Below are positions 35,533 through 40,263 of a stretch of DNA of 47,220 nt, piece by piece. The number at the start of each line of letters is the position of its first letter. The stretch's first letter is position 1. Source of the DNA: Gemmatimonadota bacterium (GTDB taxonomy: Bacteria > Gemmatimonadota > Gemmatimonadetes > Gemmatimonadales > GWC2-71-9); contig QHUZ01000042.1 in NCBI GenBank assembly GCA_003223395.1, positions 1-47,220 of the forward strand. Direction: 5' to 3'. The translations under genes were made by a program, and so were the position numbers. The notes below the pieces were generated by a model. That model had not been told where the DNA came from. It saw nothing but the letters and a program-made list of their open reading frames with translations, and did not search any database.

Positions 35533-35835
35533 ATGCGCTACGATGCTTTCCGAAAACGGCTGGTCGAGGCGGTGCTGCACGCGCCCGGTGAAACGCCCGA
35601 GGCGCTACGCCGCGCCGTTCTGGATCACGGGTCCACGCCCCCTGCGCTAGCCAGCTACGTTGACACCGTCAAGCGCCACGCCTACAAGGTCACTGATGCG
35701 GACATCGTGTCGCTGCAGCAAGCAGGGCAATCCGATGATACCCTGTTCGAGATTACCGTCGCCGCGGCGGTGGGTGCGGCGCTGCACCGGCTCGACCGCG
35801 GCATGGCCGCCCTCCGTGGCGAGGAGCCGGACTGA
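35533..35835 (+). CDS. Cys-free AhpD/CMD-like partner protein
   Basis: 100 residues. The second half (A-S-Y-V-D-T-V-K-R-H-A-Y-K-V-T-D-A-D-I, L-Q-Q-A-G-Q-S-D-D-T-L-F-E-I-T-V-A-A-A-V-G-A-A-L) resembles the C-terminal helices of carboxymuconolactone decarboxylase/AhpD proteins, where D-V..L-R-A-A-G-L-S-D-D-A-I-x-E is conserved. No cysteine is present, so it cannot itself be a thiol peroxidase. Its TGA overlaps the ATG of the next gene (TGATG). It is therefore a likely structural partner of the selenoprotein in a mixed AhpD-like oligomer (inference). Confidence 0.7.
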   Translation: MRYDAFRKRLVEAVLHAPGETPEALRRAVLDHGSTPPALASYVDTVKRHAYKVTDADIVSLQQAGQSDDTLFEITVAAAVGAALHRLDRGMAALRGEEPD

Positions 35836-36422
35836 TGCGCGTGCACAGGGTCGAGCACGGCCATCGGCTGAAGCAGAAGCTGATGCTGGGGTTGATCCGG
35901 CTGCTCAGCGGGCGCCGCGTGCCGGACGTCGTGAAGACGCTGATGTACCGGCCCGAGTTCTTCGGCCGGCCGCAGTGCGCGTGGACGCAGGCGGTGATGC
36001 GGGGACCGTCGGCGTGGAGCGTCGGCGAACGCGAGCTGTTCGCGGCGTTCACCTCGAAGCTCAATCAATGCGTCTTCTGAACGGAGTCCCACGCCGCGGT
36101 CGCGGCGCTGGCGCTGGGGGATGAACGGTTCGTAAAGGCGGTCGTGGACGATTGGCGCACCGCGCCCATCGACGCGAAGCTGCGCGCGATGCTCGGGTTC
36201 CTCGATAAACTCACGCTGCGGCCGAACGACGTGCGGCCTGCCGACGTCGCGCCGCTGCGAGCCGTTGGTCTGTCGGATGACGCGATCGAAGACGCGATCA
36301 ACGTCTGCGCGCTCTTCAACATCTACGACCGTCTCGCCGACGCACTTGGCTGGTACCTGCCGGATGCCGGCGGATACGCCGCCTCGGCGCAAAACCTAAT
36401 GAAGCGGGGGTATCTGCTCTAA
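35835..36422 (+). CDS. AhpD-like peroxidase-related selenoprotein (TGA 36078-36080 read as Sec82)
   Basis: 195 residues when the in-frame TGA is read as selenocysteine. The frame is open on both sides and both halves belong to one family: E-R-E-L-F-A-A-F-T-S-K-L-N-Q-C-V-F before, and T-E-S-H-A-A-V-A-A-L then L-R-A-V-G-L-S-D-D-A-I-E-D-A, F-N-I-Y-D-R-L-A-D-A-L-G after. Relatives have C-x-x-C-x3-H. Here Glu67, Cys79, Sec82 and His86 repeat the spacing of AhpD Glu118, Cys130, Cys133 and His137, so Sec occupies the peroxidatic position. A SECIS-like hairpin follows (36092-36107). The expected role is hydroperoxide reduction in the cytoplasm with a C-x-x-U redox pair. It overlaps the convergent FG-GAP gene by 27 bp. 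A pseudogene or sequencing error is the alternative. Confidence 0.82.
36092..36107 (+). promoter_or_regulatory. Bacterial SECIS-like hairpin
   Basis: CGCCGC (36092-36097) pairs perfectly with GCGGCG (36102-36107) around the loop GGTC (36098-36101). The loop begins 17 nt after the TGA, within the 16-37 nt reported for bacterial SECIS elements, and starts with G as required. GGUC is also the apical tetraloop of E. coli fdhF (from memory). Two further C-G pairs are possible below a 2x2 mismatch. The bulged U of fdhF is absent. Confidence 0.65.
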
Positions 36423-39400
36423 CTGCAGCCGATCGTTGTTGCGCGCTACCACAATCAACCGATCGCCATTGACCCGCCGCAGAAACGCCATGTGGCGCAC
36501 CTGCCCGTCGATCGCCAGGCCGCTCTGCTCCATATCCACAGTGGTAAATCCCCCGCGACCGTCGCCGCGCAGGAAAAGACCGTAACTCGCGTCGTAGCGG
36601 CCCTCGAGTGGCGTCACACCGGAGAAGTTGCCGGCAACGACGAGATCGGTCTTGCCATCGCCGTCGAAATCGCCGGCCTGTGAGGCGTAGATGGGAGCGA
36701 ACTGCGCCTCGATGGGGAGGGCGTGCAGCTCGAACGTGCCATCGCCGCGGTTGATGGCCACGGCGCTGCCGAACGTGTCGGCCTCGAGCACGTGCGCTTG
36801 CTTCAGTGCTTTCCCCGGAATGATGTCCTGAATCCGGCTCGCGCCGAACGACTGGTATGTCGGGTACGCCTTCCGCAGCGACGGCATCGCCTGCACCAGC
36901 TCGTCGCGTCCCACCAACGGATAGCTGACGCCGTGACGATACGACGTGAGGATCTGCAGCAGCTTTCCCGTATTGAAGAAATCGCCGACATAGAGCCGTG
37001 CCGGCTCCTCGCGCGACGCACGGATGAAGGAATTCAAGCCGAGATTGCCGAGGACGAGATCGGGGCGGCCGTCGCCATTGAGGTCCGCTGCCTGGACGCT
37101 TGTCCACCAGCCGTTGGTGCCCGCGAAGCCGGCCTCCGTCGTGCGGTCCACGAATTTCCCGTTCTCTTGATGGAACACGCGCACCGGCATCCATTCGCCG
37201 ACGACGATCAGGTCGAGCTTGCCGTCGCCGTCGTAATCGACCCATGTCGCCCGCGTGACCAACCCGACCGAATCGAGGCCCGGCGCCTTCTCGACGGTGA
37301 CGTCGTGGAAATGCCCCCGTCCGTCATTCTCCAGCAAATAACTGCGCGGCATGACGCCATACTGCCGCGCGACGACGCGGCTGCCGACGAAGAGAAAATC
37401 GCGGCTCGCCGCGATGCAGGAGCCGTTGTGGAAGAAGACGGGCAACGCCCCCTCCCCGGCACGGCTGAAATTGCCGTGACCATCATTCAGGTACAGCCGG
37501 TCCTGCAGCGGCGCGCCCTCCCAGAACTCGTTGCCGCCACTCACGACGTAGAGATCGAGATCGCCGTCGCCGTCGGCGTCGAACAGCGCGGCGTCCACGT
37601 CCTCATCCAGGCTGTCCGCGCGAAACGACGGCTCCGCCGCGGCCTGGAACCGGCCGGTCGGGTCCTGCAGGAACAGCGCGCCGGGCTGCCACTTCGCGCC
37701 GCCGACGTAGATGTCCTCCTGGCCATCGCCGTTGACGTCGCCGATGGCGAGTGCCGGGCCCTCGGTCGAAAGGAGGTGCGGCATCAGCGGCTCCCGGCCG
37801 AAGTCGAAGAAGGTGTTCTCCCGATGCTTGTAGTTGATTGGTACCGCATCGGTGACGTCCGAGAACAGCGGCGGATGGGCGGATGGGCGGATGGGCGGAA
37901 GCGGATGGCTGCGCGCATCCGATTGCGACAAAGTGATGATACGATCAGCGGCCACATTCTCCAGCACTTGCGAGCGCCGGTCAGGCCAAATGACCGTGAG
38001 CGAGTCCACGCGCGAAGTCGTTCCCAGGCCAAAGTGAGCACGAGGATCGACCGCGGACTCGAAGCCGCGCGTCGGCATTATCTCTACGAGCTGGCGCCCG
38101 GCTGGGCTGGCGACGATGACCTTTGCACCGATTCCCGAGGTGTTCGCCCCCGAGCCCCGCAATGTCACCGTGAGATAGTGGTGATTGGCACTGTCCAGGT
38201 CGCGCACCTGATTGCGGTACACCGCCGCGGGGGCGTTGAGATTGTTCACCACGAGATCGAGCGCGCCGTCGTTATCGAGATCGACGTAGGCCGCGCCGTT
38301 CGAGAATCCCGCGGCGTTGAGTCCCCAGGCGGCGGCCAGGTTGGTGAACGTGAGATCCCCGTTGTTGTGAAACGCGTAATTCGGCCGTGGCACGTGCGGC
38401 ATCTTCGCGATGAGTCGAGCGATCGGCGGCTCAACGCCGGCTGGGATCGAGTCGAACGACGCGATGTAGTCGAGATCGTTCGGCCGGCGGTAGACGCCGG
38501 TGGTGACGAACAGGTCCTTGCGCCCATCGTTGTCGAAGTCGGCGAAGAGGGGCGCCCAGCTCCAGTCGGTCGCGGCGATGCCGGCGAGCAACCCGATCTC
38601 GCTGAAGCGGAGCTTGCCGCCAACGACGCCGCGGTTCAGCTGCAACGTGTTGCGCGCGTACTGGTAGTGGTAGCCCGCCGCGAGCTTTAGGCTGAACAGA
38701 GAATAGCTCTCGCTGGTGGCCGCGGTCTTGAGGATCGCCTCGCTGTCGGGGAGCATGTCGAGCACCGCGATGTCGGGGCGGCCGTCGTTGTTGAAGTCCG
38801 CCGCGTCGGCGCCCATGGAGAAGCGGCTCGTGTGGCCCGTCGCCTGGGCGATCGATTCGGTGAACGTCCCGTTGCAGTTGTTGAGATAGAGAAAGTCGTT
38901 CTCGGGGAAGTCGTTGGCGATGTAGATGTCGGGACAACCGTCGAGATTGACGTCGCTCACCGCCACGCCCAGCCCAAACCCTTCGACGCCGCCGTAGATG
39001 TACGCGCTCGCGCTGACATCCACGAAGTGCCCGCGATCGTTGCGATACAGCCGGTCACCGGCGCGGGCATTGCGCTCCGTGCGGCTCACGCTCCTGGAGG
39101 CGGCGCGTTCGGAGAGCGTGGAGCTGTTCAGCAGGTACATGTCGAGGTCGCCGTCGCCGTCATAGTCGAAGAAGGCGGCCTGCGTGGAGTAGCCCGCGAA
39201 TGCGAGGCCATACTCCGCGCCACGGTCGGTGAACGTCCCGTCGCCGTTGTTGATGTAGAGGACGTTGCGGCCCTGCATGCCGCGATAGTTCACGCCCGAC
39301 ACGTAGATGTCGAGCCGCCCGTCGCCGTTGACATCGGCCATCGTGACGCCGCTCTTCCAACCCACGGAATCGGCCACGCCCGCGCGGGCGGTGATGTCCT

Positions 39401-39695
39401 CGAAGCGAAAGTTGCCCAAGTTGCGGTACAACCGGTTGGCGCCCAGGTTCGACGTGAAATACAAGTCCATCAATCCGTCACCGTCGATGTCGCCCGCGGC
39501 AACGCCGCCGCCGTTGTAGTAGTAGAGATAATTGACGATGTTCAGCGCGGAATCGTCCGGCGGGAGCGTGTTGGCGAACGTAATCCCGCTCGCCTCGGGC
39601 GCCACAGCGACGAACAGCGGCGGCACGGGCGGCGTTCGCCGGCAGCTCATCAGGAACGCCGGGAGTGCAAGCAGAAACGACAGATGTTTTCGCAA
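36396..39695 (-). CDS. CRTAC1-type FG-GAP/VCBS repeat lipoprotein with ASPIC/UnbV domain
   Basis: About 1,099 residues. A leader with lipobox (F-L-M-S-C) starts at TTG 39695; ATG 39737 would add 14 residues and overlap the divergent gene. TATACT lies 8 nt before the TTG. Many FG-GAP repeats carry Ca2+ loops of the type D-I-D-G-D-G-L-M-D-L-Y-F, forming two propellers. Between them is an ASPIC/UnbV domain (S-G-I-G-A-K-V-I-V...D-P-R-A-H-F-G-L-G-T...V-I-W-P-D). It is a surface-exposed protein of unknown ligand. Octamer repeats encode H-P-L-P-P-I-R-P-S-A-H-P-P near 37871-37908. Confidence 0.88.
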   Translation of the reverse strand: MRKHLSFLLALPAFLMSCRRTPPVPPLFVAVAPEASGITFANTLPPDDSALNIVNYLYYYNGGGVAAGDIDGDGLMDLYFTSNLGANRLYRNLGNFRFEDITARAGVADSVGWKSGVTMADVNGDGRLDIYVSGVNYRGMQGRNVLYINNGDGTFTDRGAEYGLAFAGYSTQAAFFDYDGDGDLDMYLLNSSTLSERAASRSVSRTERNARAGDRLYRNDRGHFVDVSASAYIYGGVEGFGLGVAVSDVNLDGCPDIYIANDFPENDFLYLNNCNGTFTESIAQATGHTSRFSMGADAADFNNDGRPDIAVLDMLPDSEAILKTAATSESYSLFSLKLAAGYHYQYARNTLQLNRGVVGGKLRFSEIGLLAGIAATDWSWAPLFADFDNDGRKDLFVTTGVYRRPNDLDYIASFDSIPAGVEPPIARLIAKMPHVPRPNYAFHNNGDLTFTNLAAAWGLNAAGFSNGAAYVDLDNDGALDLVVNNLNAPAAVYRNQVRDLDSANHHYLTVTLRGSGANTSGIGAKVIVASPAGRQLVEIMPTRGFESAVDPRAHFGLGTTSRVDSLTVIWPDRRSQVLENVAADRIITLSQSDARSHPLPPIRPSAHPPLFSDVTDAVPINYKHRENTFFDFGREPLMPHLLSTEGPALAIGDVNGDGQEDIYVGGAKWQPGALFLQDPTGRFQAAAEPSFRADSLDEDVDAALFDADGDGDLDLYVVSGGNEFWEGAPLQDRLYLNDGHGNFSRAGEGALPVFFHNGSCIAASRDFLFVGSRVVARQYGVMPRSYLLENDGRGHFHDVTVEKAPGLDSVGLVTRATWVDYDGDGKLDLIVVGEWMPVRVFHQENGKFVDRTTEAGFAGTNGWWTSVQAADLNGDGRPDLVLGNLGLNSFIRASREEPARLYVGDFFNTGKLLQILTSYRHGVSYPLVGRDELVQAMPSLRKAYPTYQSFGASRIQDIIPGKALKQAHVLEADTFGSAVAINRGDGTFELHALPIEAQFAPIYASQAGDFDGDGKTDLVVAGNFSGVTPLEGRYDASYGLFLRGDGRGGFTTVDMEQSGLAIDGQVRHMAFLRRVNGDRLIVVARNNDRLQLEQIPPLH
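37871..37908. repeat. 8-bp tandem repeat GCGGATGG inside the FG-GAP gene
   Basis: GCGGATGG occurs three times in a row (37871-37894) and, after GCGGAA, once more (37901-37908). It is translated on the minus strand as a Pro/His-rich linker between the UnbV domain and the second propeller. Confidence 0.8.
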
Positions 39696-39711
39696 GGGGC
39701 GCCAGTATAGC

Positions 39712-40263
39712 GTGAAAACTTTCAGTTCGCTCGTCATCGTGGTGCTCCTCAGCGCCGTCGCGTGTCGGGAGAAGCCCATCGATCAAGGCGCATTGATCAC
39801 GGCGCGCACGATCGGGCTCGATGATCTGCAACGTGGGCGCCTGGCCGAGGCCGAGCAGGAGTTTCGGACGGTCATCGCGCTCGCGCCGCGCGACCCGCTG
39901 GGCTACGCCAACCTCGGCCTCACCTATTTGCGCGCCGGGCGCTACGCCGAGGCGGAGTCGCAGCTCGACCGCGCTCGGCGCCTCGATGCCAAGAGTCCCG
40001 ACATCGCGCTCATCATCGCGAAGCTGTATTCCCTGACGGGCCGGCCCGCCGACGCCCGCCGGGTTCTCAGTACGATTCCTCCGGACGCCAGAGTGCTGTA
40101 CGCCCTCGCTGAGCTCGAACGCGAACATGGCGACGGCGCGTATGCCGACCGGCTGCGCCCGGTGCTCGAGCGGGTTCCGGCCAACCTCGCGGTCCGGCTC
40201 AAACTCGCCGATGCGCTGCTGCGGCGCTCGCCGAGGTGGACGGGATCGAAGGGCCGCTCGTAG
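39712..40263 (+). CDS. TPR protein with lipoprotein-like leader; probable N-terminal part of the next gene
   Basis: 183 residues from GTG 39712. The leader (V-K-T-F-S-S-L-V-I-V-V-L-L-S-A-V-A-C) ends in a cysteine with a weak lipobox. At least three tetratricopeptide repeats follow (G-R-L-A-E-A-E-Q-E-F-R-T-V-I-A-L-A-P, Y-A-N-L-G-L-T-Y-L-R-A-G-R-Y-A-E-A-E). The last 15 residues (R-S-P-R-W-T-G-S-K-G-R-S) no longer look like TPR. The natural continuation (A-L-A-E-V-D-G-I-E-G-P-L-V-G-R-P) lies in the -1 frame and is the start of the downstream reading frame. Only 16 bp separate its start from the divergent FG-GAP gene. Confidence 0.7.
   Translation: MKTFSSLVIVVLLSAVACREKPIDQGALITARTIGLDDLQRGRLAEAEQEFRTVIALAPRDPLGYANLGLTYLRAGRYAEAESQLDRARRLDAKSPDIALIIAKLYSLTGRPADARRVLSTIPPDARVLYALAELEREHGDGAYADRLRPVLERVPANLAVRLKLADALLRRSPRWTGSKGRS

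Follow-up and report, generated by a model that had tools for sequence, protein, structure and literature searches.

We analyzed a 47,220-nucleotide stretch of DNA (the window; positions 1 to 47,220 of contig QHUZ01000042.1), one of 123 contigs in the draft assembly of a soil Gemmatimonadota bacterium (GCA_003223395.1) representing a 97.6% complete genome. Two overlapping genes lie on its forward strand. The first (35533..35835) is a 100-residue open reading frame (ORF) without cysteine, which relatives and profile and structure comparisons assign to a predicted AhpD fold that lacks the CxxC helical hairpin; we refer to it as the partner. Its TGA stop codon (35833-35835) overlaps by one base (TGATG) with the ATG of the second gene (35835..36422), for which the frame, profiles, and homologues indicate an AhpD-like selenoprotein of 195 residues with selenocysteine (Sec) at position 82 and a TAA stop. 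A GAGGAG resembling a Shine-Dalgarno sequence by consensus match (35821..35826, forward strand) is located within the partner gene, 8 nt before the selenoprotein ATG, and also occurs in most near relatives. Scans for promoters and terminators found none. By eye, from the ORF list rather than by profile, the flanking genes look like SusC/TonB-type and FG-GAP/ASPIC-type genes, and no ahpC was seen beside the enzyme gene in the 32- to 40-kb part of that list. At its 3′ end (36396-36422), the selenoprotein gene overlaps by 27 bases with a convergent 1,127-residue FG-GAP/ASPIC-like gene (36396-39779).

The plain ORF list splits the enzyme into 35835-36080 (81 amino acids) and 36144-36422 (92 amino acids), exactly the two fragments that the initial annotation of this DNA had expected from a gene caller. 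When the TGA at 36078-36080 is read as one residue, a 195-residue frame (35835-36419) results, followed by TAA at 36420-36422. The joined protein matches the NCBIfam family TIGR01926, “peroxidase-related enzyme” (117.2 bits; cut-off, 81.8; E value, 6.9e-34), over residues 20 to 172, a match that spans the TGA, and Pfam PF02627 (CMD; 27.4 bits; cut-off, 23), in agreement with the earlier assignment to the peroxidase-related AhpD/CMD proteins. Its five best PDB matches are 6K40, 2OYO, 2PFX, 3C1L, and 2PRR (E values, 1e-28 to 5e-24). Two related families score far below their cut-offs: the AhpD-related CFYUT (seleno)protein family NF041238 (44.6 of the 175 bits of its equivalog cut-off) and the YciW-related (seleno)protein family NF053654 (23 of 310 bits).

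The active-site codons, all on the forward strand, were found where the initial annotation had placed them. Glu67 (36033..36035), Cys79 (36069..36071), and His86 (36090..36092) are invariant in 54 homologues, as are G44, C/U82, A88, F161, G192, and Y193; Sec82 (36078..36080) is Sec or Cys in homologues from the module. The relay of Mycobacterium tuberculosis AhpD comprises Glu118, Cys130, His132, Cys133, and His137 (PMC3141380). The spacing of Glu67, Cys79, Sec82, and His86 (12-3-4) is identical to that of Glu118, Cys130, Cys133, and His137, as had been claimed, but the relay His132 is not conserved: four of the five relay residues are kept by position, one of them as Sec, and the fifth is Phe81, which is F in at least 90% of the homologues. 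With Phe81 in place of the relay histidine, the mechanism of AhpD may not apply here. The earlier statement that Sec replaces the peroxidatic thiol exactly was right in that Sec82 matches Cys133 of AhpD, yet it was too firm, since the catalytic Cys of Sestrin2 matches the first Cys of the pair (PMC4674687). In one homologue (L165), the first Cys is gone but the second remains.

Evidence for selenocysteine insertion at the in-frame TGA

Relatives of the protein occur in 91 of the 201 genomes of the order. Nearly all near relatives contain one in-frame TGA, and wherever the sequence was read this codon is the fourth residue of C-x-x-U. More than 20 relatives from the same order (53 to 89% identity) have a single TGA in the identical column, and stop-free relatives hold Cys there (e.g., L065, L071, and L091). 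Codon changes after the TGA are mostly synonymous (37 synonymous versus 12 nonsynonymous against L098); together with the shared column, this excludes chance. Across the two-gene module the column holds TGA in 60 cases and TGC or TGT in 17, so the aligned homologues have Sec or Cys at position 82, as the initial annotation had predicted.

The initial annotation had also proposed looking for selA, selB, selD, and a tRNA-Sec(UCA), and all are present in the genome. The tRNA-Sec gene was detected with RF01852 (77.6 bits) and assigned a UCA anticodon by ARAGORN, and SelA, SelB, and SelD all score above their cut-offs. SelD itself has a TGA in its active-site motif (HGAGUACK, with Sec at GUACK; L018, 1501-2433, minus strand), which brings the Sec genes of the genome to at least three: selD, the present enzyme gene, and, on contig 98, another AhpD-like gene (L092, 29901-30332, minus strand). 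The latter carries the motif CRYUIESH, is without a partner, and has a hairpin that differs from the present one, with a GUU loop at equal distance from the TGA. Within the order, 77 genomes have a TGA-containing relative and 71 of these have tRNA-Sec, versus 4 of the 14 genomes with stop-free relatives only (Fisher p, 9e-7). The six genomes with a TGA gene in which tRNA-Sec was not detected are possibly incomplete assemblies. In another genome (G174), a tRNA-Sec gene (L045, 2123-2218) follows the AhpD selenoprotein gene (1501-2076) by ∼47 nt on the same strand.

Downstream of the TGA, we identified a bacterial SECIS hairpin (36089..36111, forward strand) from covariation, codon bias, and published rules. 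Its core, CGCCGC-GGUC-GCGGCG, starts 11 nt past the UGA and pairs 36092-36097 with 36102-36107 (6 bp) around the loop GGUC (36098-36101), which begins 17 nt after the UGA, at nucleotide 21 counted from the U. The GGUC loop is shared with the E. coli fdhF SECIS, where it lies one base further on. Published rules for bacterial SECIS elements specify a loop of 3 to 9 nt, a stem of 4 to 16 bp, a G in the first two loop positions, a spacing of 16 to 37 nt, and a minimum free energy of at most −7.5 (PMC13188914); with a 4-nt loop, a 6-bp core stem, a 17-nt spacing, and −15.3 kcal/mol, the hairpin lies within all of these ranges.

The core hardly varies across 57 of the 59 Sec homologues, which come from many phyla. 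The loop Val codon is GTC in 57 of 58 to 59 Sec homologues versus 42% elsewhere in the same genes, and the GCG codons that flank it occur in 58/59 and 59/59 Sec homologues versus 50% GCG elsewhere (probabilities for this codon bias ignore shared ancestry). The 17 Cys homologues have assorted codons at the core, and most do not retain the hairpin. An alignment of 29 sequences had 98.3% of its cells paired, with changes on both sides at three pairs (21 cells), and its covariation score was unmatched by any shuffle or slide. The 25-nt hairpin folds better than shuffled sequences (z, −2.24), whereas the whole 50-nt region of the single sequence does not (z, 0.26), so the case for a SECIS rests on covariation and codon bias. 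Rfam gave no relevant match. A subgroup of the same family with the motif HAHDLRAEV (L075 to L078, L083, and L085) carries the hairpin CGACCTC-CGGGCT-GAGGTCG ∼7 nt further from the UGA, which is another SECIS solution. Among more distantly related AhpD-like Sec genes of the phylum, the hairpins are quite different, with a loop that has G at or near the same distance.

Could the TGA instead be a true stop, a sequencing error, or the mark of a pseudogene, with only two fragments remaining? ORF callers do split the frame, and the sequence comes from a draft assembly of 123 contigs. However, the same TGA recurs in dozens of independent genomes, which rules out a read error (including the misread TGC or TGT that the initial annotation had considered), the part downstream is under purifying selection, and the SECIS is kept in TGA forms only, so we regard this explanation as highly improbable. 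A genome-wide reading of TGA as a sense codon, e.g., Trp or Gly, has the open frame alone to speak for it and practically no probability: the partner ORF directly upstream terminates at TGA, stop-free homologues hold Cys at the column rather than Trp or Gly, and the genome encodes SelB and a tRNA-Sec with a UCA anticodon. We therefore rejected pseudogene, read error, and general reassignment on the basis of the shared TGA column, the Cys homologues, and the Sec machinery. Based on that machinery, the genome-level link to tRNA-Sec, and the hairpin conserved in Sec forms, we conclude from sequence comparison that the frame 35835-36422 is read through as a selenoprotein.

Two kinds of divergent copies were seen among the relatives. 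In L053 (genome G111, contig 111), a partner-less second copy, the TGA and SECIS are kept and the catalytic His is replaced by Ser (CPFUTGASG). In the single genome of L109/L048, the frame of the enzyme is broken past residue 119 with TGA and SECIS intact, probably through frameshift or decay.

Distribution and predicted fold of the partner

A scan of 84,980 species genomes yielded 99 relatives of the partner, of which 80 were kept. They derive from Gemmatimonadota, Myxococcota (including cultured Nannocystis), Acidobacteriota, Actinomycetota, Chloroflexota (Tengunoibacter), Planctomycetota, Bacteroidota, Calditrichota, Pseudomonadota, Thermodesulfobacteriota, and one Thermoplasmata bin. A script located an AhpD-like gene within 700 nt of the partner at 77 of the 80 loci (60 Sec and 17 Cys forms), and two further pairs (L096 and L165) were found by eye, bringing the total to 79 and leaving only L150. 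In 54 of the 60 Sec loci, the two genes overlap or all but abut (−4, −1, or +1), and the Cys forms keep the pair despite gaps of 2 to 76 nt. In four Actinomycetota (Nocardia, two Lentzea, and Amycolatopsis), partner and enzyme form one protein, with the enzyme first. Within the Gemmatimonadota, the partner profile matches 26 of 298 genomes, although the G027 match is probably to the C-terminal half of the enzyme itself. No partner was present in the flanks read around Gemmatimonadota AhpD-like paralogues outside the clade, and a plasmid collection contained no partner relative.

CxxC is absent from all 80 partners, and of the 60 that accompany Sec enzymes, 50 lack Cys altogether in the matched stretch. 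The initial description of a Cys-free partner thus applies to the ORF at 35533-35835; outside the Gemmatimonadota the partner may contain Cys, though never CxxC. The same annotation had stressed the occurrence of the selenoprotein beside this partner in a probable Gemmatimonadota genome. The Sec form dominates in this phylum and occurs in many others, so the host is not special. A quick, unrooted tree of 76 enzymes requires four changes between Sec and Cys, with gain and loss not distinguishable. Most of the Cys forms (11) group in one clade next to myxobacterial Sec forms, and another Cys group is the fused actinobacterial clade.

No Pfam or NCBIfam model matched the partner above cut-off. 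TIGR01926 matched 10 of 16 partner members below cut-off (best E value, 3.3e-5), and CMD matched one (E value, 0.028). An hhalign profile comparison placed the partner on the enzyme's C-terminal half (probability, 93.8%; E value, 1.8e-7). An alignment of fusions and separate proteins likewise put that half onto the partner, which illustrates their homology; because of this misalignment it was left out of folding. The AlphaFold model of the partner has five helices (pLDDT, 95.4). Its best Foldseek matches in the PDB are peroxidase-related AhpD structures (probability, ∼1.00; TM score on the query, 0.56 to 0.72; E value, only 0.02), and VIA gave Z scores of 9.1 with 3C1L (94 residues, 3.1 Å) and 8.0 with Sestrin2. 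For a helical protein, a Z score of 9 alone is no proof of kinship, but combined with the sequence profile it makes a good case, and we predict that the partner has a trimmed AhpD fold from which the CxxC hairpin is missing. KcsA-type matches found by VIA (Z, at most 5.8) were attributed to common helix packing and designed-protein matches to chance.

Proposed two-subunit enzyme and known systems

From the computed features of the locus (frame, SECIS, Sec machinery, conservation, pairing, fusion, and partner fold), we consider it probable that the two genes form a translationally coupled unit encoding an AhpD-fold selenoenzyme, with Sec inserted through SECIS and SelB, and a partner devoid of the motif. 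SelB with Sec-tRNA-Sec would bind the hairpin and insert Sec. Glu67 and His86 may assist in deprotonating Cys79 and Sec82, after which the selenol or thiol would reduce an organic hydroperoxide or take up electrons in the role of a disulfide-reductase adaptor. The resulting Cys79-Sec82 selenenylsulfide would be reduced by some dithiol system. The small partner, which has no active site, would most likely associate with the enzyme to give a mixed oligomer, where it may fill positions taken by the enzyme in homohexameric relatives or shape the substrate site. Gene coupling and fusion point to such a complex, which we infer along with its peroxidase activity, substrate, and reductant.

More broadly, we lean toward a widespread hetero-oligomeric (seleno)peroxidase in which a catalytic CxxU/CxxC AhpD subunit is joined by an obligate, motif-less AhpD-fold partner across ∼10 phyla, fused in Actinomycetota. 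The catalytic role could also be that of a dithiol/selenol disulfide reductase or adaptor, either AhpC-reducing like AhpD or thioredoxin-like. This would fit the behavior of Cys133, the M. tuberculosis counterpart of Sec82, an accessible thiol that reacts and forms a disulfide with AhpC (PMC6626918), and the use of CxxU as a general thiol redox motif (PMC1088965), but it is opposed by the lack of an adjacent ahpC, as judged by eye in the 32- to 40-kb ORF list, and by the reduction of alkyl hydroperoxides by both Sestrin2 and M. tuberculosis AhpD (PMC4674687); we hold it to be plausible but the less probable role. For the ORF upstream of the selenoprotein, a role as only a cotranscribed neighbor or translational coupler, and not a subunit, is unlikely. 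The near-universal overlap of the genes could serve expression alone, and the model of the fused protein is weak (pLDDT, 68, too low to read the interface). Against this reading stand a pair that is kept over ∼10 phyla and, in Cys forms, across intergenic gaps, true protein fusions, and a partner that itself has the AhpD fold. We conclude that the partner is more than a chance neighbor and is the more interesting part of the locus.

The enzyme is split by gene callers, and no model in the searched profile libraries matches its partner above cut-off. Should the two proteins form a complex, activity may have escaped assays done on the enzyme by itself. The Cys/Sec switch inside one module offers a clean test of what Sec contributes, and laboratory testing is possible, since cultured Nannocystis and Tengunoibacter carry the Sec form and Chitinophaga and Rhodococcus the Cys form.

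The selenoprotein is of a known kind. AhpD-like CxxU selenoproteins were reported from the Sargasso Sea in 2005 (PMC1088965) and from GOS in 2008 (PMC2398784), in line with the initial remark that they are known from environmental surveys, and TIGR01926 CxxU is listed in a table of a 2026 AEM review (PMC13188914). The present enzyme shares with this AhpD-like 1 family (COG2128/TIGR01926) the same profile above cut-off, CxxU at the same column, and a downstream bacterial SECIS. The published descriptions found mention neither the fusion nor a conserved AhpD-fold partner, nor the GGUC hairpin that is nearly fixed in Gemmatimonadota, Myxococcota, and others. The partner appears to be undescribed; a literature search found nothing on it, which is weak evidence of novelty because most subscription journals were outside its scope.

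The closest solved relatives of the enzyme (6K40, 2OYO, 2PFX, 3C1L, and 2PRR) have the equivalent Glu, CxxC, and His. Unlike it, they have Cys instead of Sec and are single-chain oligomers whose entry titles name no partner subunit. NF041238 and NF053654 represent related AhpD-fold selenoprotein families. Compared with M. tuberculosis AhpD, the enzyme keeps the Glu-Cys-Cys-His spacing but has Phe81 for His132 and no ahpC neighbor, and its motif lies in the N-terminal half, as in PA0269, not at the C-terminus. In Sestrin2, one AhpD-fold domain with a redox motif (Sesn-A, active) is combined with one without (Sesn-C, inactive), like the enzyme and partner, and the proposed hetero-oligomer would, with the same modest confidence, be a bacterial parallel to this active/inactive domain pair. 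Sestrin is one chain of Sesn-A, B, and C with a single catalytic Cys, whereas the present genes encode proteins of 100 and 195 amino acids with a Cys/Sec pair, domain B is absent, the partner is much shorter, and TOR signaling has no place here. The resemblance to sestrins is likely to reflect a parallel arrangement.
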